From the NCBI GenBank assembly GCA_937923405.1, contig CALDUY010000002.1, positions 496,001-560,000 on the forward strand: a stretch of 64,000 nt of DNA, in the 5' to 3' direction. The number at the start of each line of letters is the position of its first letter. Positions within the stretch are counted from its first letter, which is position 1. This stretch comes from an uncultured Gemmataceae bacterium. GTDB lineage: Bacteria; Planctomycetota; Planctomycetia; Gemmatales; Gemmataceae. Shown piece by piece: positions 1-5,573 of this stretch. A program made the translations under genes and the position numbers. The notes beneath the pieces were generated by a model. It was not told the origin of the DNA. It was given only the letters and a program-made list of their open reading frames with translations, and did no database searches.

Positions 1-926
1 GTTGAGACCTCGAGTGGGCGAGCAATCGCAGAAGCCAGGGCCACGGCAAAACTTTGCATGTTGACATGGCGATTCTGCGGATTCCGCTCCAGGGCGCGCA
101 GACAAACTTGAGCAAGTCGGGGCGGCACTTCGGGGCGGAGTTGTCGCGGGTCGATCAACGGATACGCCTGCAACCGCCCCATGAAGTGTTCTCGCAGGTC
201 TGTGCGCTCTGGCCAGGGAAGTCGACCAGTCAATAGCTGATAGAGGATCACCCCCAAGGAATACACGTCCCAGGTGATATGAGGGAAGATTGCTGGGGGA
301 TCAGGAAGGAGTACCGCCTCGACAACTTCGGGCGGAATGTAGTCCCGAGTGCCGCCAATTCGACGAGTGATTCGCGCAAACGGATCGGTTAGCGACAGGG
401 CCAATCCAAAATCGACAATGATCGGTTCGCTATCTCTCGTGATGAGGATGTTCGCTGGTTTCAGGTCACGATGCAGGACGCCGGCATCGTGGGCATGCTG
501 CATGGCCGTGGCCAGCGTGTGAACCAGTGTCGCGGCATTGACAGGTGAAAATCCTCCGCCGCGGTGCAGCACTGTGGCCAGTGATTCGCCCACGATCAAA
601 GGCATTTCTAGATAGGGAACACCTTCCACCTCGCCCGCTTCCACCAAGCCACAAAGATTGGGATGGTGCCGCAAATTCCTCAGCGCTCGTACTTCTTCGT
701 CGAACTGTACGCGGCTTTCTTCACTTCGGAACTCGTCTTTGGGGATTTTTACGGCGCAATGTCGTTGGTGATTCTGATGGTAAGCACAATAGACCACGGC
801 CATGCCGCCATTTCCGAGTTGGCCTCTCAAGACATATGGCCCAAAGTACCTAGGCAATGGATCCCTTTCTGTCGCTTTCGGATCCGAGTGAGTCATCCAG
901 TCGCCCGTAGGATCGTCATGGCTCAT
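1..926 (-). CDS. Ser/Thr protein kinase, 3' end outside window
   Basis: Hanks-type Ser/Thr kinase reading from an ATG at 926 and leaving the window still open, so only the first ~308 residues are seen. Visible motifs in order: glycine-rich loop LGNGGMAVVY (about 37-46), catalytic Lys60 in CAVKIPK, HRDLKPANIL with Asp154, DFG at 172-174, an activation segment ending GTRDYIPPEV, and DVYSLGVILYQLLTG of helix F. All core catalytic residues are present, so an active kinase is expected. The start codon lies inside the last codons of the upstream TDO-like gene (11-bp overlap), which suggests translational coupling. It is the third gene of a minus-strand operon with a TrpRS-like and a TDO-like protein. 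Substrates and the C-terminal part cannot be seen. Family assignment is secure; partnership with the upstream genes is inferred from the overlap. Confidence 0.9.
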   Translation of the reverse strand, partial: MSHDDPTGDWMTHSDPKATERDPLPRYFGPYVLRGQLGNGGMAVVYCAYHQNHQRHCAVKIPKDEFRSEESRVQFDEEVRALRNLRHHPNLCGLVEAGEVEGVPYLEMPLIVGESLATVLHRGGGFSPVNAATLVHTLATAMQHAHDAGVLHRDLKPANILITRDSEPIIVDFGLALSLTDPFARITRRIGGTRDYIPPEVVEAVLLPDPPAIFPHITWDVYSLGVILYQLLTGRLPWPERTDLREHFMGRLQAYPLIDPRQLRPEVPPRLAQVCLRALERNPQNRHVNMQSFAVALASAIARPLEVS

Positions 927-2376
927 CGCGGGGCTCCCGATCCTCCGCTGCATCCCGAATTCGGTCATGTGGCTCCTGCTTCACCTGAGATGTCGACCAA
1001 CTCCACGAGTCGCTTTCCACCAGAGGCAGCAAGGGACGCCGTCCTACTTTTGGAGCGACTCGGCTGGCCACGATCCATTCGCTGGACAGCGCGCGTTCCA
1101 GATCGAGCAAGCTCTGCTGTTCGATTTCAGCGGCACGCTGCTCAGAATGGACGAATAACCCTTCGCGCAAGAACTGGCGAAGATAGTGGTAGCCCGATGT
1201 GCCTCCCGTCGCCGCTACCGCACCGTCTCCTGAGCCAGAGGGCCGGCCCAAATACTTGACGGCAAAGGCGACATGACGGCCACGCCAGCGCAGCAACGCT
1301 TCGTCGAAGTCAGCAGCGGCTTCGCGGACCTGATTCCAGCGAAGATCCCCTTGTTGTTCCAAGCGATGAATCTGTGTTCGCAAACTGACGAAGTCAGGGT
1401 GGTGATAGAGTCGCAAGTCGCGCAACGAGCGATTCTCTCGATAGATCGGTAACTTTCGCGCATCGACACCGCGCAAGTGGATATCCAAGAGTTGATAATT
1501 CCGTGATTGGACAGCGCTACCGCGTTCGGTGTACTCACGGAAAGCGAGGAAATGTTCGGGCGGCATGGTCCACAACACTTCAAAGGTGCGAAACAAAAAT
1601 TGTACGACGGCAGTGCCCTGACGCAGACTCTGCTCTGCCGCTTCCCATTGGCCCAGGCGTAGCTGTTCAATTGTCTCTAGCACGAGTACGCGCAAAGCAA
1701 AAAAGCAGAGTTCACTGATGTGAATGGTTCGTAGAAAGCACACTTCATCATGACAGATGGTCTGCGGAAAGCAAGAGAGATGCAGCAGGGCACTGGTTCC
1801 ACCCGGTTGGCGGGCATAGCCTTCCAGAGAGGCATATCGGGTACCCAAGAAATCAGTTTCGTTCCATTTGGGCAAACTAGATGCTTCGAGTTCCCTTTCA
1901 GACTCCTTGAGAACTCGTTCGATAAGCTCGATCCGTTGATGAACAATGGCAGGAGCGAAATCGTTGCACTGAAACCAAACTTCTCCTCGCTGGCTGGCAG
2001 ATTCAAACCGCGCCAGGTCTCGTAGCAATAACATCGCACCGCGTACCGCCTTGCCTTTGAGGATCTCAATTGGTGCATGACTGGGGGACAGATACCAATC
2101 GATCACCCCAGTGTCGGTGTACGAGTAATAGCTGATCGGTTGCGGCTGACTAAGCATATAGAGGGGAAACGTCACCTCACGCAAGAGAGCGGCGAGTCGT
2201 CGCGTCTCTCTGCCGAAGTCCTCACAACGTAACGCTCGAAGAGCCAAGCGGTAGCCTGGTTGCCAAGTAGCCAGAAGCTCGCTGGGAAGGCGGCGTCTTC
2301 CCCCGGCTCGCTGACCGAGAATCAATTCGGGCACGGCTAGGCGGTTGACTCGGCGAGTGAAGAGGCGTTCATTCAT
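916..2376 (-). CDS. Tryptophan 2,3-dioxygenase-fold protein with long N-terminal extension
   Basis: A 486-residue protein whose second half follows the tryptophan 2,3-dioxygenase (TDO) pattern. CHDEVCFLRTIHISELCF at 208-225 matches the HDEMLF...H..YELWFK block and His209 aligns with the distal substrate-contacting His. FREYTERGSAVQSRNYQLL at 279-297 matches FRD..GP.SGFQS, with Arg280 at the carboxylate-binding position. LRWRGRHVAFAVKYLG (362-377) supplies His368 at the proximal haem-ligand position, and ATGGTSGYHYLR (389-400) matches GTGGSSG..YL with Thr390 at the substrate-binding Thr. Haem binding and indole oxidation are therefore plausible. Unlike ordinary TDOs (~280-300 residues), it has ~180 extra N-terminal residues and a ~70-residue charged tail. 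Typical kynurenine-pathway genes are absent; the neighbours are a TrpRS-like protein 12 bp upstream and a kinase overlapping downstream. The substrate could be another indole. The fold call rests on motif alignment by eye. Confidence 0.72.
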   Translation of the reverse strand: MNERLFTRRVNRLAVPELILGQRAGGRRRLPSELLATWQPGYRLALRALRCEDFGRETRRLAALLREVTFPLYMLSQPQPISYYSYTDTGVIDWYLSPSHAPIEILKGKAVRGAMLLLRDLARFESASQRGEVWFQCNDFAPAIVHQRIELIERVLKESERELEASSLPKWNETDFLGTRYASLEGYARQPGGTSALLHLSCFPQTICHDEVCFLRTIHISELCFFALRVLVLETIEQLRLGQWEAAEQSLRQGTAVVQFLFRTFEVLWTMPPEHFLAFREYTERGSAVQSRNYQLLDIHLRGVDARKLPIYRENRSLRDLRLYHHPDFVSLRTQIHRLEQQGDLRWNQVREAAADFDEALLRWRGRHVAFAVKYLGRPSGSGDGAVAATGGTSGYHYLRQFLREGLFVHSEQRAAEIEQQSLLDLERALSSEWIVASRVAPKVGRRPLLPLVESDSWSWSTSQVKQEPHDRIRDAAEDREPRDEP

Positions 2377-2388
2377 AGTCTTGTTGGG

Positions 2389-3084
2389 TCAGAGACCAAG
2401 AAAGGCGCGGAACTCGTCGAGTGTCTCCACGGCCTGTTCTTTGGCCCTTAACGCGCCTAGTTTGAGGATGTCTTCCACATCGTCACTATGGGTTTGCCAA
2501 TATTGATATCGATCTCTCACCATCGCTTCACTAAGGTGCGGGGAGCAAGAGTCTGGTAGAATCTGCTCTATTTGAGGGAGAGGAAATAGCAAGTACTGTT
2601 GTCCGGTGTTGATCTGTCGAGCGAAGGAAGCGGCTCGTTCGATGGATCGGCTACAATCAGTGGTAGTGGTAAGGACAGCTCGGGTGACTCGAAAGGTCAG
2701 TAGCAGAGCCGCCTCAACGTCTATTGGAGAATTGGCTATGTTCTGGCTCGGCGCAATCGCTGACATCAGCACTGCCATCTCTGCGATCTGTGGCACTTCC
2801 GATTGACGGAACAACACTGTCTTGCGGGTGTCGACTCCAATTGCTAGCAGAGCGCACGTCGTATCCCGCAAACACTGCTGGCGTTGTGCCGCAGCGAGAG
2901 GGTGAGAGAGCAGGGCATGATCTTGCAAGGCCAAGAATGTTTGGCCGGGATACTGGTGCTGCATTCTCAGTAGAGGGGAGAGAATCTTCAAGTAGTGGTC
3001 GAGAACAACCACGGATTGCGGCATCGCGCTGGCAAGTATTCGAGTGGGAAAGGTACAGAGGCAGGCTAGTTCACCAGATAGCAT
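2389..3084 (-). CDS. Degenerate tryptophanyl-tRNA synthetase-like protein (no HIGH/KMSKS)
   Basis: The 231-residue product aligns along its length with bacterial TrpRS. RILASAMPQSVVVLDHYLKI corresponds to the strand carrying the HIGH-like motif, QYPGQTFLALQDHALLSH to the ..DQHA/DLHA segment, and LRDTTCALLAIGVDTRKT followed by LFRQSEVPQIAEMAVL to LR..T...LA.GIDP.K...F.QS.VPEHA. The C-terminal helix ending LKLGALRAKEQAVETLDEF also matches. The HIGH-type glycine is replaced and the whole segment with KMSKS and part of the anticodon-binding helices (~90 residues in E. coli TrpRS) is missing, so tRNA charging is unlikely. The ATG at 3084 was chosen because it has a GGGGAG site 8 nt upstream and TrpRS similarity begins right after it. 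The frame stays open back to 3405, but that extension lacks similarity and overlaps the divergent transporter. It might bind tryptophan, an adenylate or RNA; this is inference. Confidence 0.7.
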   Translation of the reverse strand: MLSGELACLCTFPTRILASAMPQSVVVLDHYLKILSPLLRMQHQYPGQTFLALQDHALLSHPLAAAQRQQCLRDTTCALLAIGVDTRKTVLFRQSEVPQIAEMAVLMSAIAPSQNIANSPIDVEAALLLTFRVTRAVLTTTTDCSRSIERAASFARQINTGQQYLLFPLPQIEQILPDSCSPHLSEAMVRDRYQYWQTHSDDVEDILKLGALRAKEQAVETLDEFRAFLGL

Positions 3085-3350: not shown

Positions 3351-4502
3351 TTGTCTTTCCGATTATCGGTGATGATGTTTTTGCAGTGGGCGGTGCCCGG
3401 CTCACTGATCCCGCTGTACAGCCTACGTCTGGAGCGACAGCTCCTGTTCGAGCCGAGGATTACCGGATTTTGTTGCGCCACCCAAGCCGCTGCCGGCGTC
3501 ATTTCCTCGTTACTAGCCGGTCAAATTGCCGATCGCTGGATGTCGGCGGAAAAGATCATGTCCTTGTGTGCCACGTTGGCTGGGCTAGATCTGTTCTTGT
3601 TGGCGGAGTTGCGCGAGCCGACCTCCGTGTTTTTCGCCACCTTATTTTTCTGGGTCGTGACGGGGCCGATGTTGTTGTATGGCACAACAATTTCGTTCGC
3701 TCATTTGCCCGAACCGGGCCGACAGTTCGGGCCGATTCGCATGTGGGGGACGATCGGCTGGATGGGGATCGGCTATGCGATCAGCTTTTACTCAGGAGAT
3801 GCCTTACACGTCGGCGGAGCAGTGGCGTTATTACTGGCGGTCTATGCGTTGACTCTGCCAGCCACTCCGCCGCGACGTCCCGATTCCAACGAACCTAACG
3901 TTCGATTTGCCCCACTGAAGGCGCTGGGACTGATGCGAAAACGCTCGTTCGCCATCTACGCTGTGTGCATGCTCGGAGCCTGTATCACCTTCCCCTTCAC
4001 GACTCAGAATAACTCGCTGTTGTTGGAAACCCTAGGTGTCGAGAAACGCTGGTTGACCTCGGTGCTGACTATTGCCCAGGCGACCGAGGTGATTGGTCTG
4101 GCTTTGTTGCCTACGATTTTGCTTACCTTCGGGGTACGCTGGACGATGGCGATCGGGCTGGCATCCTGGTTGGCCGCGATGTGCATTCTCTCGATCGGCG
4201 AACCGTTGGAACTGGTGCTAGGGTCGATGGCTCTCAATGGCTTGTACGTCGTTGGTTTTCTCATCGCGGGACAGGTCTACGTCAACAGCCTAGCTGAGGG
4301 CGACATTCGCGCGAGTGTGCAGGGATTGCTGGCGTGTATTGGCGGGATCGGCACCTTGTTGGGAAATGTGCTGGTTGGCTGGCTGCGCCAATTTAATCAT
4401 GGCGCACTACCTCCGACGTTCGCGGTGGCTGCGGGGATCACTGGCGGTATTCTGCTGCTGTTCATGCTCGGGTTCCATCAACCGCGGCGACCGTTGGAGT
4501 AA
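3351..4502 (+). CDS. MFS transporter, nucleoside:H+ symporter (NupG)-like
   Basis: A 383-residue polytopic membrane protein with about 11-12 hydrophobic segments. It opens with LSVMMFLQWAVPGSLIPLY, resembling the FLQFFIWGAW... start of the NupG/XapB nucleoside permease family, and contains the typical RMWGTIGWMGIGY segment of helix 4-5. The TTG at 3351 is taken as the start because GAGAGAG lies just upstream and it precedes the first helix; ATGs at 3372/3375 would cut into that helix. It is transcribed divergently from the TrpRS-like/TDO-like/kinase operon across a short gap and followed by a tRNA gene. The substrate could be a nucleoside or a related small molecule. MFS membership is secure and NupG-type specificity is tentative. 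Confidence 0.8.
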   Translation: MSFRLSVMMFLQWAVPGSLIPLYSLRLERQLLFEPRITGFCCATQAAAGVISSLLAGQIADRWMSAEKIMSLCATLAGLDLFLLAELREPTSVFFATLFFWVVTGPMLLYGTTISFAHLPEPGRQFGPIRMWGTIGWMGIGYAISFYSGDALHVGGAVALLLAVYALTLPATPPRRPDSNEPNVRFAPLKALGLMRKRSFAIYAVCMLGACITFPFTTQNNSLLLETLGVEKRWLTSVLTIAQATEVIGLALLPTILLTFGVRWTMAIGLASWLAAMCILSIGEPLELVLGSMALNGLYVVGFLIAGQVYVNSLAEGDIRASVQGLLACIGGIGTLLGNVLVGWLRQFNHGALPPTFAVAAGITGGILLLFMLGFHQPRRPLE

Positions 4503-4608: not shown

Positions 4609-4683
4609 GGCGGCGTAGCTCAGCCCGGTTAGAGCAGCGGCTTCATAAGCCGCGTGTCACTGGTTCAAATCCAGTCGCCGCTA
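4609..4683 (+). tRNA. tRNA-Met (CAU), elongator type
   Basis: A complete cloverleaf can be drawn: acceptor arm GGCGGCG pairing with CGCCGCT, D-stem GCTC/GAGC, anticodon stem GCGGC/GCCGC with loop TTCATAA (anticodon CAT), variable loop GTGTC, and T-arm ACTGG-TTCAAAT-CCAGT. The discriminator is A and no CCA is encoded. Position 1-72 is G-U, unlike the unpaired C-A of initiators, so this is elongator tRNA-Met or, less likely, a lysidine-modified tRNA-Ile(CAU). It stands 106 bp after the MFS gene. Confidence 0.93.
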
Positions 4684-4701
4684 CTGTACGCCCTTGCGCT
4701 A

Positions 4702-4787
4702 TGGTTTCAGCGATCCGGACGAACTACGAATTCAACGAATTAGCCGCCTGAATTCGTTAAATTCGTACTTCGTATAGCGTGAAACCA
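4702..4787. repeat. Large imperfect palindrome next to tRNA-Met
   Basis: Two nested inverted repeats. The outer arms TGGTTTCA (4702-4709) and TGAAACCA (4780-4787) match perfectly. The inner arms at 4720-4741 and 4751-4772 match at 20 of 22 positions around a 9-nt loop. There is no T-tract, so it is not a standard terminator. It sits between the tRNA-Met and the truncated 5' edge of the recombinase remnant, so it may mark an element end, a crossover site or a MITE insertion. Confidence 0.75.
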
Positions 4788-5553
4788 ACGTCACGGGCTG
4801 CCCAGCTCGACGTACGGTGTTGCCTACAAGCCGCACCAGATGACCTACGCCAGCGAACTGATCGAGTGCGGCCACTGCGGATGCCCGATCATCGGTGAGA
4901 CGAAGACGAAGAAGACGAAGACCAGCGAGCGGGAATACGTCTACTACCGCTGCACGAAGTGCCACAAGGGCGATCATCCCCGGACCCGGCTCACCGAGGG
5001 CGAGATCGACACCCAGATCCTCGGCCTGTTCGACCGGCTGCGGGTCGGGGACGACGAGTTCCGGCAGGTGTTTGTGGATGAGCTACGGCAGGCGACGAAC
5101 GGGGAGTTGAGCCGGTCGTCGCAGGAGGGGAGTGACCTGAAGAAACGCCACTCCGAGGTCGTGCGGCTTCAGGGGCAATTGCTGAACCTGCGGCTGAACC
5201 ACGAGATCGACGCCGAGACCTTCGCCGCCAAGGGGCGAGAACTGCGGGACGAGGAGGCGGCGTTGCGGCTGAGGATCGAGGCTTGCAGTCGGGGGCGGAA
5301 CGAGGCCATCGACCTCGCTGTGAAAGCGTTTGAACTCTCGCAAAACCTGCGTTCCCACTGGCTTGTGGCGGATTATGCCGAGAAGCGGCGGGTGCTGGAA
5401 ATCGTCTTTTTGAACTTCCTGCTGGATGACGCAAACCTTGTCCCGATAACAAGAAAGCCCTTCGACGTGCTCGCCGAAGGGCTTGTCTCGAAGAATAGTC
5501 GGGGCGACTGGATTCGAACCAGCGACCTCCTGAACCCCATTCAGGCGCGCTAG
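4783..5553 (+). pseudogene. C-terminal remnant of a large serine recombinase
   Basis: The open frame after a stop at 4780 reads YGVAYKPHQMTYASELIECG and then CGHCGCPIIGE...YVYYRCTKC, the zinc beta-ribbon (Recombinase_Zn_ribbon) with its Cys pairs. A basic linker and a long coiled coil rich in Glu/Arg/Leu (about 4.99-5.35 kb) follow, as at the C-terminus of large serine recombinases. The N-terminal resolvase domain with the catalytic Ser and the Recombinase domain are missing; the break falls at the palindrome. The last codons are not authentic: the frame runs through the terminator hairpin at 5455-5484 and into the antisense of tRNA-Pro, giving the familiar spurious GDWIRTSDLL tail. An ATG at 4840 exists, but a working protein is not expected. 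It is the relic of an integrative element between two tRNA genes. Confidence 0.85.
5455..5484 (-). terminator. Probable intrinsic terminator of tRNA-Pro
   Basis: A perfect 10-bp stem (5455-5464 with 5475-5484, AAGCCCTTCG/CGAAGGGCTT) with a 10-nt loop lies 15 bp beyond the tRNA-Pro 3' end. On the minus strand it is followed by TTCTTGTT, a short weak T-rich tract. It overlaps the 3' part of the recombinase remnant. Confidence 0.6.
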
Positions 5554-5573
5554 CCAAGCTGCGCCACGCCCCG
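5499..5573 (-). tRNA. tRNA-Pro (GGG)
   Basis: The minus strand folds as acceptor CGGGGCG/CGCCCCG, D-stem GCGC/GCGC, anticodon stem CCTGA/TCAGG with loop ATGGGGT (anticodon GGG), and T-arm GCTGG-TTCGAAT-CCAGT (one mismatch at the stem end) with discriminator A. CCA is not encoded. C1-G72 and the GGG anticodon fit proline. It converges with the recombinase remnant, whose reading frame runs into it, so its 3' half could be an old attachment site. Confidence 0.93.

Follow-up and report, generated by a model that had tools for sequence, protein, structure and literature searches.

The two genes heading an operon at one end of the 64,000-nucleotide stretch of Gemmataceae DNA analysed here (the window) encode P0001, a degenerate TrpRS paralogue, and P0002, an extended protein of the tryptophan 2,3-dioxygenase (TDO) superfamily. 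They may well be a diverged version of a two-component module of which we found no description, in which a tryptophan-tailoring haem enzyme is paired with a non-catalytic, TrpRS-derived partner within a small peptide-type biosynthetic operon. The operon is more likely to make a small tryptophan-derived molecule than to sense tryptophan. An extended branch of the TDO superfamily that lacks the distal histidine recurs widely in apparent natural-product gene clusters, and the genes of one clade of this branch are accompanied by a TrpRS copy, which in most cases no longer resembles a working synthetase. This raises the question of a TrpRS-derived protein passing substrate on to a haem oxygenase; should tRNA take part, translation machinery would be linked to haem chemistry in a new way.

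Operon layout and host genome

Positions 1-3084 of the window hold three tightly packed open reading frames (ORFs) on the minus strand, as a preliminary description of this DNA had reported. These are P0001 (2389..3084; 231 aa; an internally deleted TrpRS paralogue in which HIGH, the Trp pocket and KMSKS are lost), P0002 (916..2376; 486 aa; assigned as an extended TDO-fold haem-enzyme-like protein from profile matches, a structure model and a PDB search) and P0004, a 730-aa Ser/Thr kinase-DHH-like fusion of which the N-terminal 322 aa (1..968) lie within the window and the rest beyond its edge. P0001 and P0002 are spaced by 12 bp. The 11-bp overlap previously given for the kinase gene and P0002 applies with an internal ATG at 926 but not with the longest ORF, which starts at 968 and overlaps by 53 bp.

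The kinase gene is cut by the window edge, and locus L005, which adds 12 kb past the left edge, revealed two further co-directional genes after it, giving a five-gene operon headed by the P0001/P0002 pair. An ATP-grasp gene (P0005) follows the kinase-DHH gene after 11 bp, and a FemAB-like gene (P0006) lies 72 bp further. The kinase motifs of P0004 were intact by sequence and Pfam, and its C-terminal region gave a weak DHH match (E 0.0018). P0005 was closest to the L-amino acid ligase BL00235 (E 1.4e-23) and BacD, and P0006 matched FemAB_like. With a ligase, a transferase and an oxidative tailoring enzyme all in one operon, the gene content fits amino-acid/peptide biosynthesis. An MFS transporter was left out of the operon because related transporters occur in 100 of 102 genomes of the order.

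Canonical versions of both enzymes are encoded elsewhere in the host genome, TrpRS at L006 and TDO at L007, the latter adjoining a formamidase-like gene. A defence-library search returned generic kinase matches only, and a regulatory RNA search found a tRNA alone. Integration at tRNA-Met was rejected, as the tRNA end is not duplicated and base composition is without anomaly. Among 101 other genomes of the order there were no orthologues of P0002, P0005 or P0006; the ATP-grasps (best 28% identity) and FemAB-like proteins found there were distant only. Among 343 genomes of the phylum, just 2 others had the DHH-like region, joined there to different signalling-type proteins, and the operon genes were missing. 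Given the lack of orthologues in order relatives and the rarity of the DHH-like region in the phylum, the operon appears to have been acquired as a unit. No relatives were found in viral contigs, and no plasmid searched carried P0001 or the DHH-like region.

An extended TDO-fold protein beside a degenerate TrpRS

P0002 is a member of an extended (~400-490 aa) TDO-fold family and not an ordinary TDO. Its Pfam TDO match (55.8 bits) was above cut-off, whereas its score against TIGR03036 (59.4 bits) did not reach the equivalog cut-off of 390.7. Pfam, structure search and alignment placed the TDO-fold core at residues 204-408 (1153..1767, minus strand), preceded by an all-helical N-terminal extension (residues 1-203; 1768..2376, minus strand) that is common to the extended family and gave no Pfam match. 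An AlphaFold2 model built from an alignment of 34 sequences (pLDDT 82.9, pTM 0.84) returned TDO structures as its top PDB matches, at modest E-values (0.002 and up) with probability 1.00; target-normalised TM-scores for bacterial TDOs were ~0.55-0.68, and the family profile found TDOs at E ~1e-26. The TDO fold proposed earlier was thus borne out by both the Pfam score and the predicted-structure search. Compared to TDO (TIGR03036/PF03301), P0002 shares the core fold, the HDE motif, the proximal haem His, the substrate Arg and the FR..S..QS segment, but it differs in its ~200-residue N-terminal extension, in having Ile/Leu for the distal His and in its TrpRS neighbour.

In an active-site alignment of 35 extended members and 4 canonical TDOs, the HDE His, Phe214, Phe276, Arg280, Trp364 and His368 were invariant. 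Arg280 (1537..1539, minus strand) aligned with the carboxylate-binding Arg of TDO and His368 (1273..1275, minus strand) with its proximal haem ligand, as the preliminary description had it. His209, which it had also aligned with TDO residues, is instead the His of the HDE motif, and its placement of Thr390 is made uncertain by an insert. P0002 thus has the proximal haem His and carboxylate Arg of TDO but not the distal His that contacts indole. At that position the extended members carry Leu (33/35) or Ile (2/35), and the following residue is Gln in 30/35 and His in exactly 5, all from the TrpRS-linked clade; in P0002 the two are Ile218 and the clade-specific His219 (1720..1725, minus strand). 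MarE, the oxindole-forming monooxygenase of the maremycin pathway, is likewise a TDO-fold haem enzyme in a biosynthetic pathway and gave a weak structural and profile match, but it is only ~270-286 aa long and keeps its distal His55. There, His55 makes contact with the indole and Arg118 with the carboxylate; the H55A variant still forms product (PMC11904535), so loss of the distal His does not by itself abolish activity. Its absence from P0002 suggests that the chemistry may differ from ordinary N-formylkynurenine formation or be slower. A hydrazine-forming haem family was set aside on its description as a nitrite-using heme/ferredoxin complex of a previously unidentified family (PMC12154649).

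P0001 matched TrpRS only (best NCBIfam E 8e-16, far below the cut-offs; PDB TrpRS E 3e-9), and Pfam returned only tRNA-synt_1b, at E up to 1. Compared to bacterial TrpRS (TIGR00233), it retains the FRQS(D/E)VPQ segment as well as the C-terminal helix (residues 186-231; 2392..2529, minus strand), which over 42 aa shares 43% identity with the L060 TrpRS described below, but it has lost both catalytic signatures and the Trp pocket. VLDH stands opposite the HLGN of relatives, the HIGH-type site itself (residues 28-31; 2992..3003, minus strand) reading LDHY; the pocket Asp of (M)AAD and Gln of GKDQ are both gone; and the KMSKS loop is missing with ~110 residues, as is most of the C-terminal tRNA-binding domain. 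Because catalytic and Trp-binding residues are absent, P0001 is not a synthetase, in agreement with the earlier claims that it is a TrpRS paralogue without HIGH and KMSKS and that one of the two tryptophan-fold proteins is non-catalytic.

The retained halves of P0001 are only ~50 bases apart, which indicates that the gap is a real deletion and not a frameshift. Its base composition by codon position (0.62/0.43/0.55) was coding-like, neighbouring genes giving 0.65/0.45/0.58 and 0.67/0.44/0.60, and the open frame upstream of its ATG was flat in this respect; P0001 therefore looks like a coding gene starting at 3084. Its structure model was poor (pLDDT 43.8). Cyclodipeptide synthases are short and lack synthetase signatures, as does P0001, but P0001 retains the TrpRS C-terminal helix and matched tRNA-synt_1b only; membership of that family was rejected, as the Pfam scan gave no match to it. 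Both P0001 and P0002 sit on long branches.

Recurrence of the pair in unrelated bacteria

A genome-contig scan with a single sequence gave no matches, but one guided by the family alignment found at least 80 extended TDO-like loci, mostly in actinomycetes, and ATP-grasp genes lay near ~17 of the 80 listed. The scan was pattern-seeded, so these counts are lower bounds and the TrpRS-linked clade is under-sampled. By tblastn against plasmids, extended TDO-like proteins were also found in Streptomyces, Micromonospora and Nonomuraea clusters. The actinomycete members (annotated 'tryptophan 2,3-dioxygenase family protein' or hypothetical) adjoin NRPS, short TDO, class V aminotransferase, MFS or ATP-grasp genes; they share the architecture and distal Leu/Ile of P0002 but have no TrpRS neighbour, and Gln rather than His follows the distal position. 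No reaction was reported for any extended-family member in the literature searched, which included few subscription journals.

Among the loci listed, the best match to P0002 was at L060, a locus in a metagenome-assembled genome labelled Gammaproteobacteria, followed by L061 and L062 from two Bradyrhizobium species. Together with G756 (locus L211), from a third Bradyrhizobium, these formed one clade with P0002 (bootstrap/SH-aLRT 100/100), which was kept after long-branch rows were removed. At all five clade loci, the window included, the His219-type extended TDO adjoins a TrpRS-family gene; this was true of 0 of the ~80 other extended loci listed and, with shorter flanks, of 1 of ~75 canonical-TDO loci (L012, with a TrpRS-TDO-kynureninase-like arrangement). 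A B3/4 (PheRS editing-type) domain was adjacent or fused at four of the five (L060, L061, L062 and G756), with no match in the window or L005. At L060, the extended TDO, a B3/4-domain protein (a match 2 bits below the Pfam cut-off, E 3e-6) and a complete TrpRS lie beside conjugation-type genes. At L061 and L062, the extended TDO is fused to a B3/4-like domain and followed by the TrpRS paralogue, an arrangement repeated at L211; overall, 3 of 196 Bradyrhizobium genomes carried the module.

Decay of the TrpRS copy is graded across these loci. The L060 protein is intact, with HLGN and KMSKS present; the Bradyrhizobium copies keep HLGN but read RMSQT, TMSRT and PMSST at KMSKS, all three having lost both lysines, and have Glu for the pocket Gln; the window copy is fully degenerate. 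The hosts of L060, L061 and L062 have separate canonical TrpRS genes, and in the hosts of L060 and L061 no other TrpRS or TyrRS copy lies beside an extended TDO. No kinase homologue was found near L060, L061 or L062, and none was seen in L211; the conserved module does not include the kinase.

Whether homologues are neighbours elsewhere was the test set in advance for this association, and the recurrence of the TDO-fold/TrpRS-family pairing in unrelated bacteria indicates that it is a real unit. In other planctomycetes the homologues do not occur side by side, since the extended TDO-like gene was itself missing from all those searched: samples of 392 genomes from the phylum, 102 from the order and 398 from the class yielded canonical TDOs only. 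We found no description of a TDO-TrpRS module in the literature searched (few subscription journals), in keeping with the preliminary description, which knew of no described system of this make-up.

Proposed function and alternative readings

In the module that we propose, one part would be a TDO-superfamily haem enzyme in its extended, two-domain form, and the other a TrpRS paralogue that seems, in most lineages, to have lost the ability to aminoacylate. The haem protein would most likely bind and oxidise tryptophan itself, or an amino acid or peptide derived from it; we infer a Trp-type substrate because the haem His, substrate Arg and aromatic pocket are conserved. P0001 would serve as a structural or substrate-handling partner. 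The ATP-grasp enzyme, of the L-amino-acid-ligase type, may then couple the oxidised amino acid, the FemAB-like transferase may modify the product, and the kinase-DHH fusion would be a local, probably regulatory, addition. Since these three genes accompany the pair in the window genome only, their link to it rests on operon structure and on their co-absence in relatives. The 'dedicated modification pathway' that had been suggested as one option fits this content, the remainder of the operon encoding ligase- and acyltransferase-type enzymes.

Because TrpRS and B3/4 recur in the clade, a tRNA-linked reaction keeps a place among the candidates, although we think it improbable that the haem enzyme acts on or uses Trp-tRNA. 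In such a scheme the TrpRS paralogue would present the tRNA or aminoacyl end, B3/4 would release or proofread the product and, in the window, the FemAB-like protein would take the aminoacyl group. Both clade-conserved neighbours are tRNA-charging parts (TrpRS 5/5, B3/4 4/5), L060 has a complete TrpRS and the window operon has the FemAB_like match; however, P0001 lacks all catalytic signatures and most of the tRNA-binding C-terminal domain, neither the window nor L005 has a B3/4 match, and PF04339 proteins are not, to our knowledge, generally tRNA-dependent. There is precedent for aaRS-like enzymes that use aminoacyl-tRNA in the cyclodipeptide synthases, relatives of the TyrRS and TrpRS catalytic domain (PMC4159871). 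The specific form in which the TDO-superfamily enzyme oxidises tryptophan borne on tRNA, or on a carrier derived from TrpRS, and in which a repurposed TrpRS and B3/4 act as dedicated partners, is unlikely to a similar degree, and no aminoacyl-tRNA-dependent oxidative pathway of this kind was described in the literature searched.

An intact TrpRS at L060 would also suit self-protection, in which the module makes a toxic tryptophan analogue, the TrpRS paralogue is the resistant target, B3/4 clears mischarged tRNA and the window copy has decayed; in the chuangxinmycin cluster a trpRS gene was flagged as a potential resistance gene (PMC12087186). We consider this distinctly unlikely, as all three Bradyrhizobium copies have lost the KMSKS lysines and changed the pocket Gln to Glu, and the window copy, without any catalytic signature, is a dead synthetase that cannot replace an inhibited one. 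The tryptophan or indole sensor wired to phosphorylation, which the preliminary description had raised alongside a pathway, fared worst and now seems very unlikely. A catalytically dead TrpRS-like protein could in principle sense, and the kinase gene is co-directional and overlapping, but P0001 has lost the Trp-pocket Asp and Gln while the haem and substrate residues of P0002 are in place, no kinase was seen at the other four clade loci, and the other operon genes look biosynthetic. Planctomycete genomes are rich in such kinases and this one is local, so the wiring to phosphorylation is unsupported beyond operon membership. It is likewise distinctly unlikely that P0001 is a functionless remnant of the module's TrpRS, leaving only P0002 and the downstream enzymes to matter here. 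The internal deletion, low identity, single copy and poor structure model of P0001 would agree with a relic, but its 231-codon ORF is intact with coding-like composition by codon position, it lies 12 bp from P0002, and its C-terminal helix is well conserved.

Neighbouring genes in the window

A divergent gene at 3351-4502 of the window encodes a nucleoside-permease-like MFS transporter (PF03825) that probably lies outside the private operon of the TrpRS paralogue and extended TDO-like gene, because related transporters were present in 100 of the 102 genomes of the order. Between tRNA-Met and tRNA-Pro (window 4609-5573), a 237-aa ORF carries a recombinase zinc-ribbon domain and is possibly what is left of a site-specific recombinase gene.

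The DHH-like domain

The DHH-like domain, which was poorly covered by Pfam, was located at 10777-12024 of L005 (the extended window locus), where it is fused to the Ser/Thr kinase, and in two other planctomycetes (L163 7657-10920 and L164 9443-12190), where its fusion partners are other signalling-type proteins. At all three loci the DHH motif comes first and a PDLDA-type motif follows.

TDO and TrpRS genes at other loci

In Bradyrhizobium G756, the TDO/TrpRS module lies a few kb from genes of a GTPase-associated system (DO-GTPase1 and GAP1-N1) and IS66-like transposase genes (L211 289-6866). A Micromonospora zamorensis plasmid (L057 9095-17352) groups a short TDO, a class V aminotransferase, an extended TDO-like gene and an MFS gene. 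Genes for a nitric oxide synthase oxygenase and for a globin-domain protein adjoin them, and the whole is possibly a cluster joining NO with tryptophan oxidation. The TrpRS-TDO adjacency in planctomycete G020 (L012 401-3392), a tandem of complete TrpRS, canonical-type TDO and kynureninase-like PLP enzyme, is independent.
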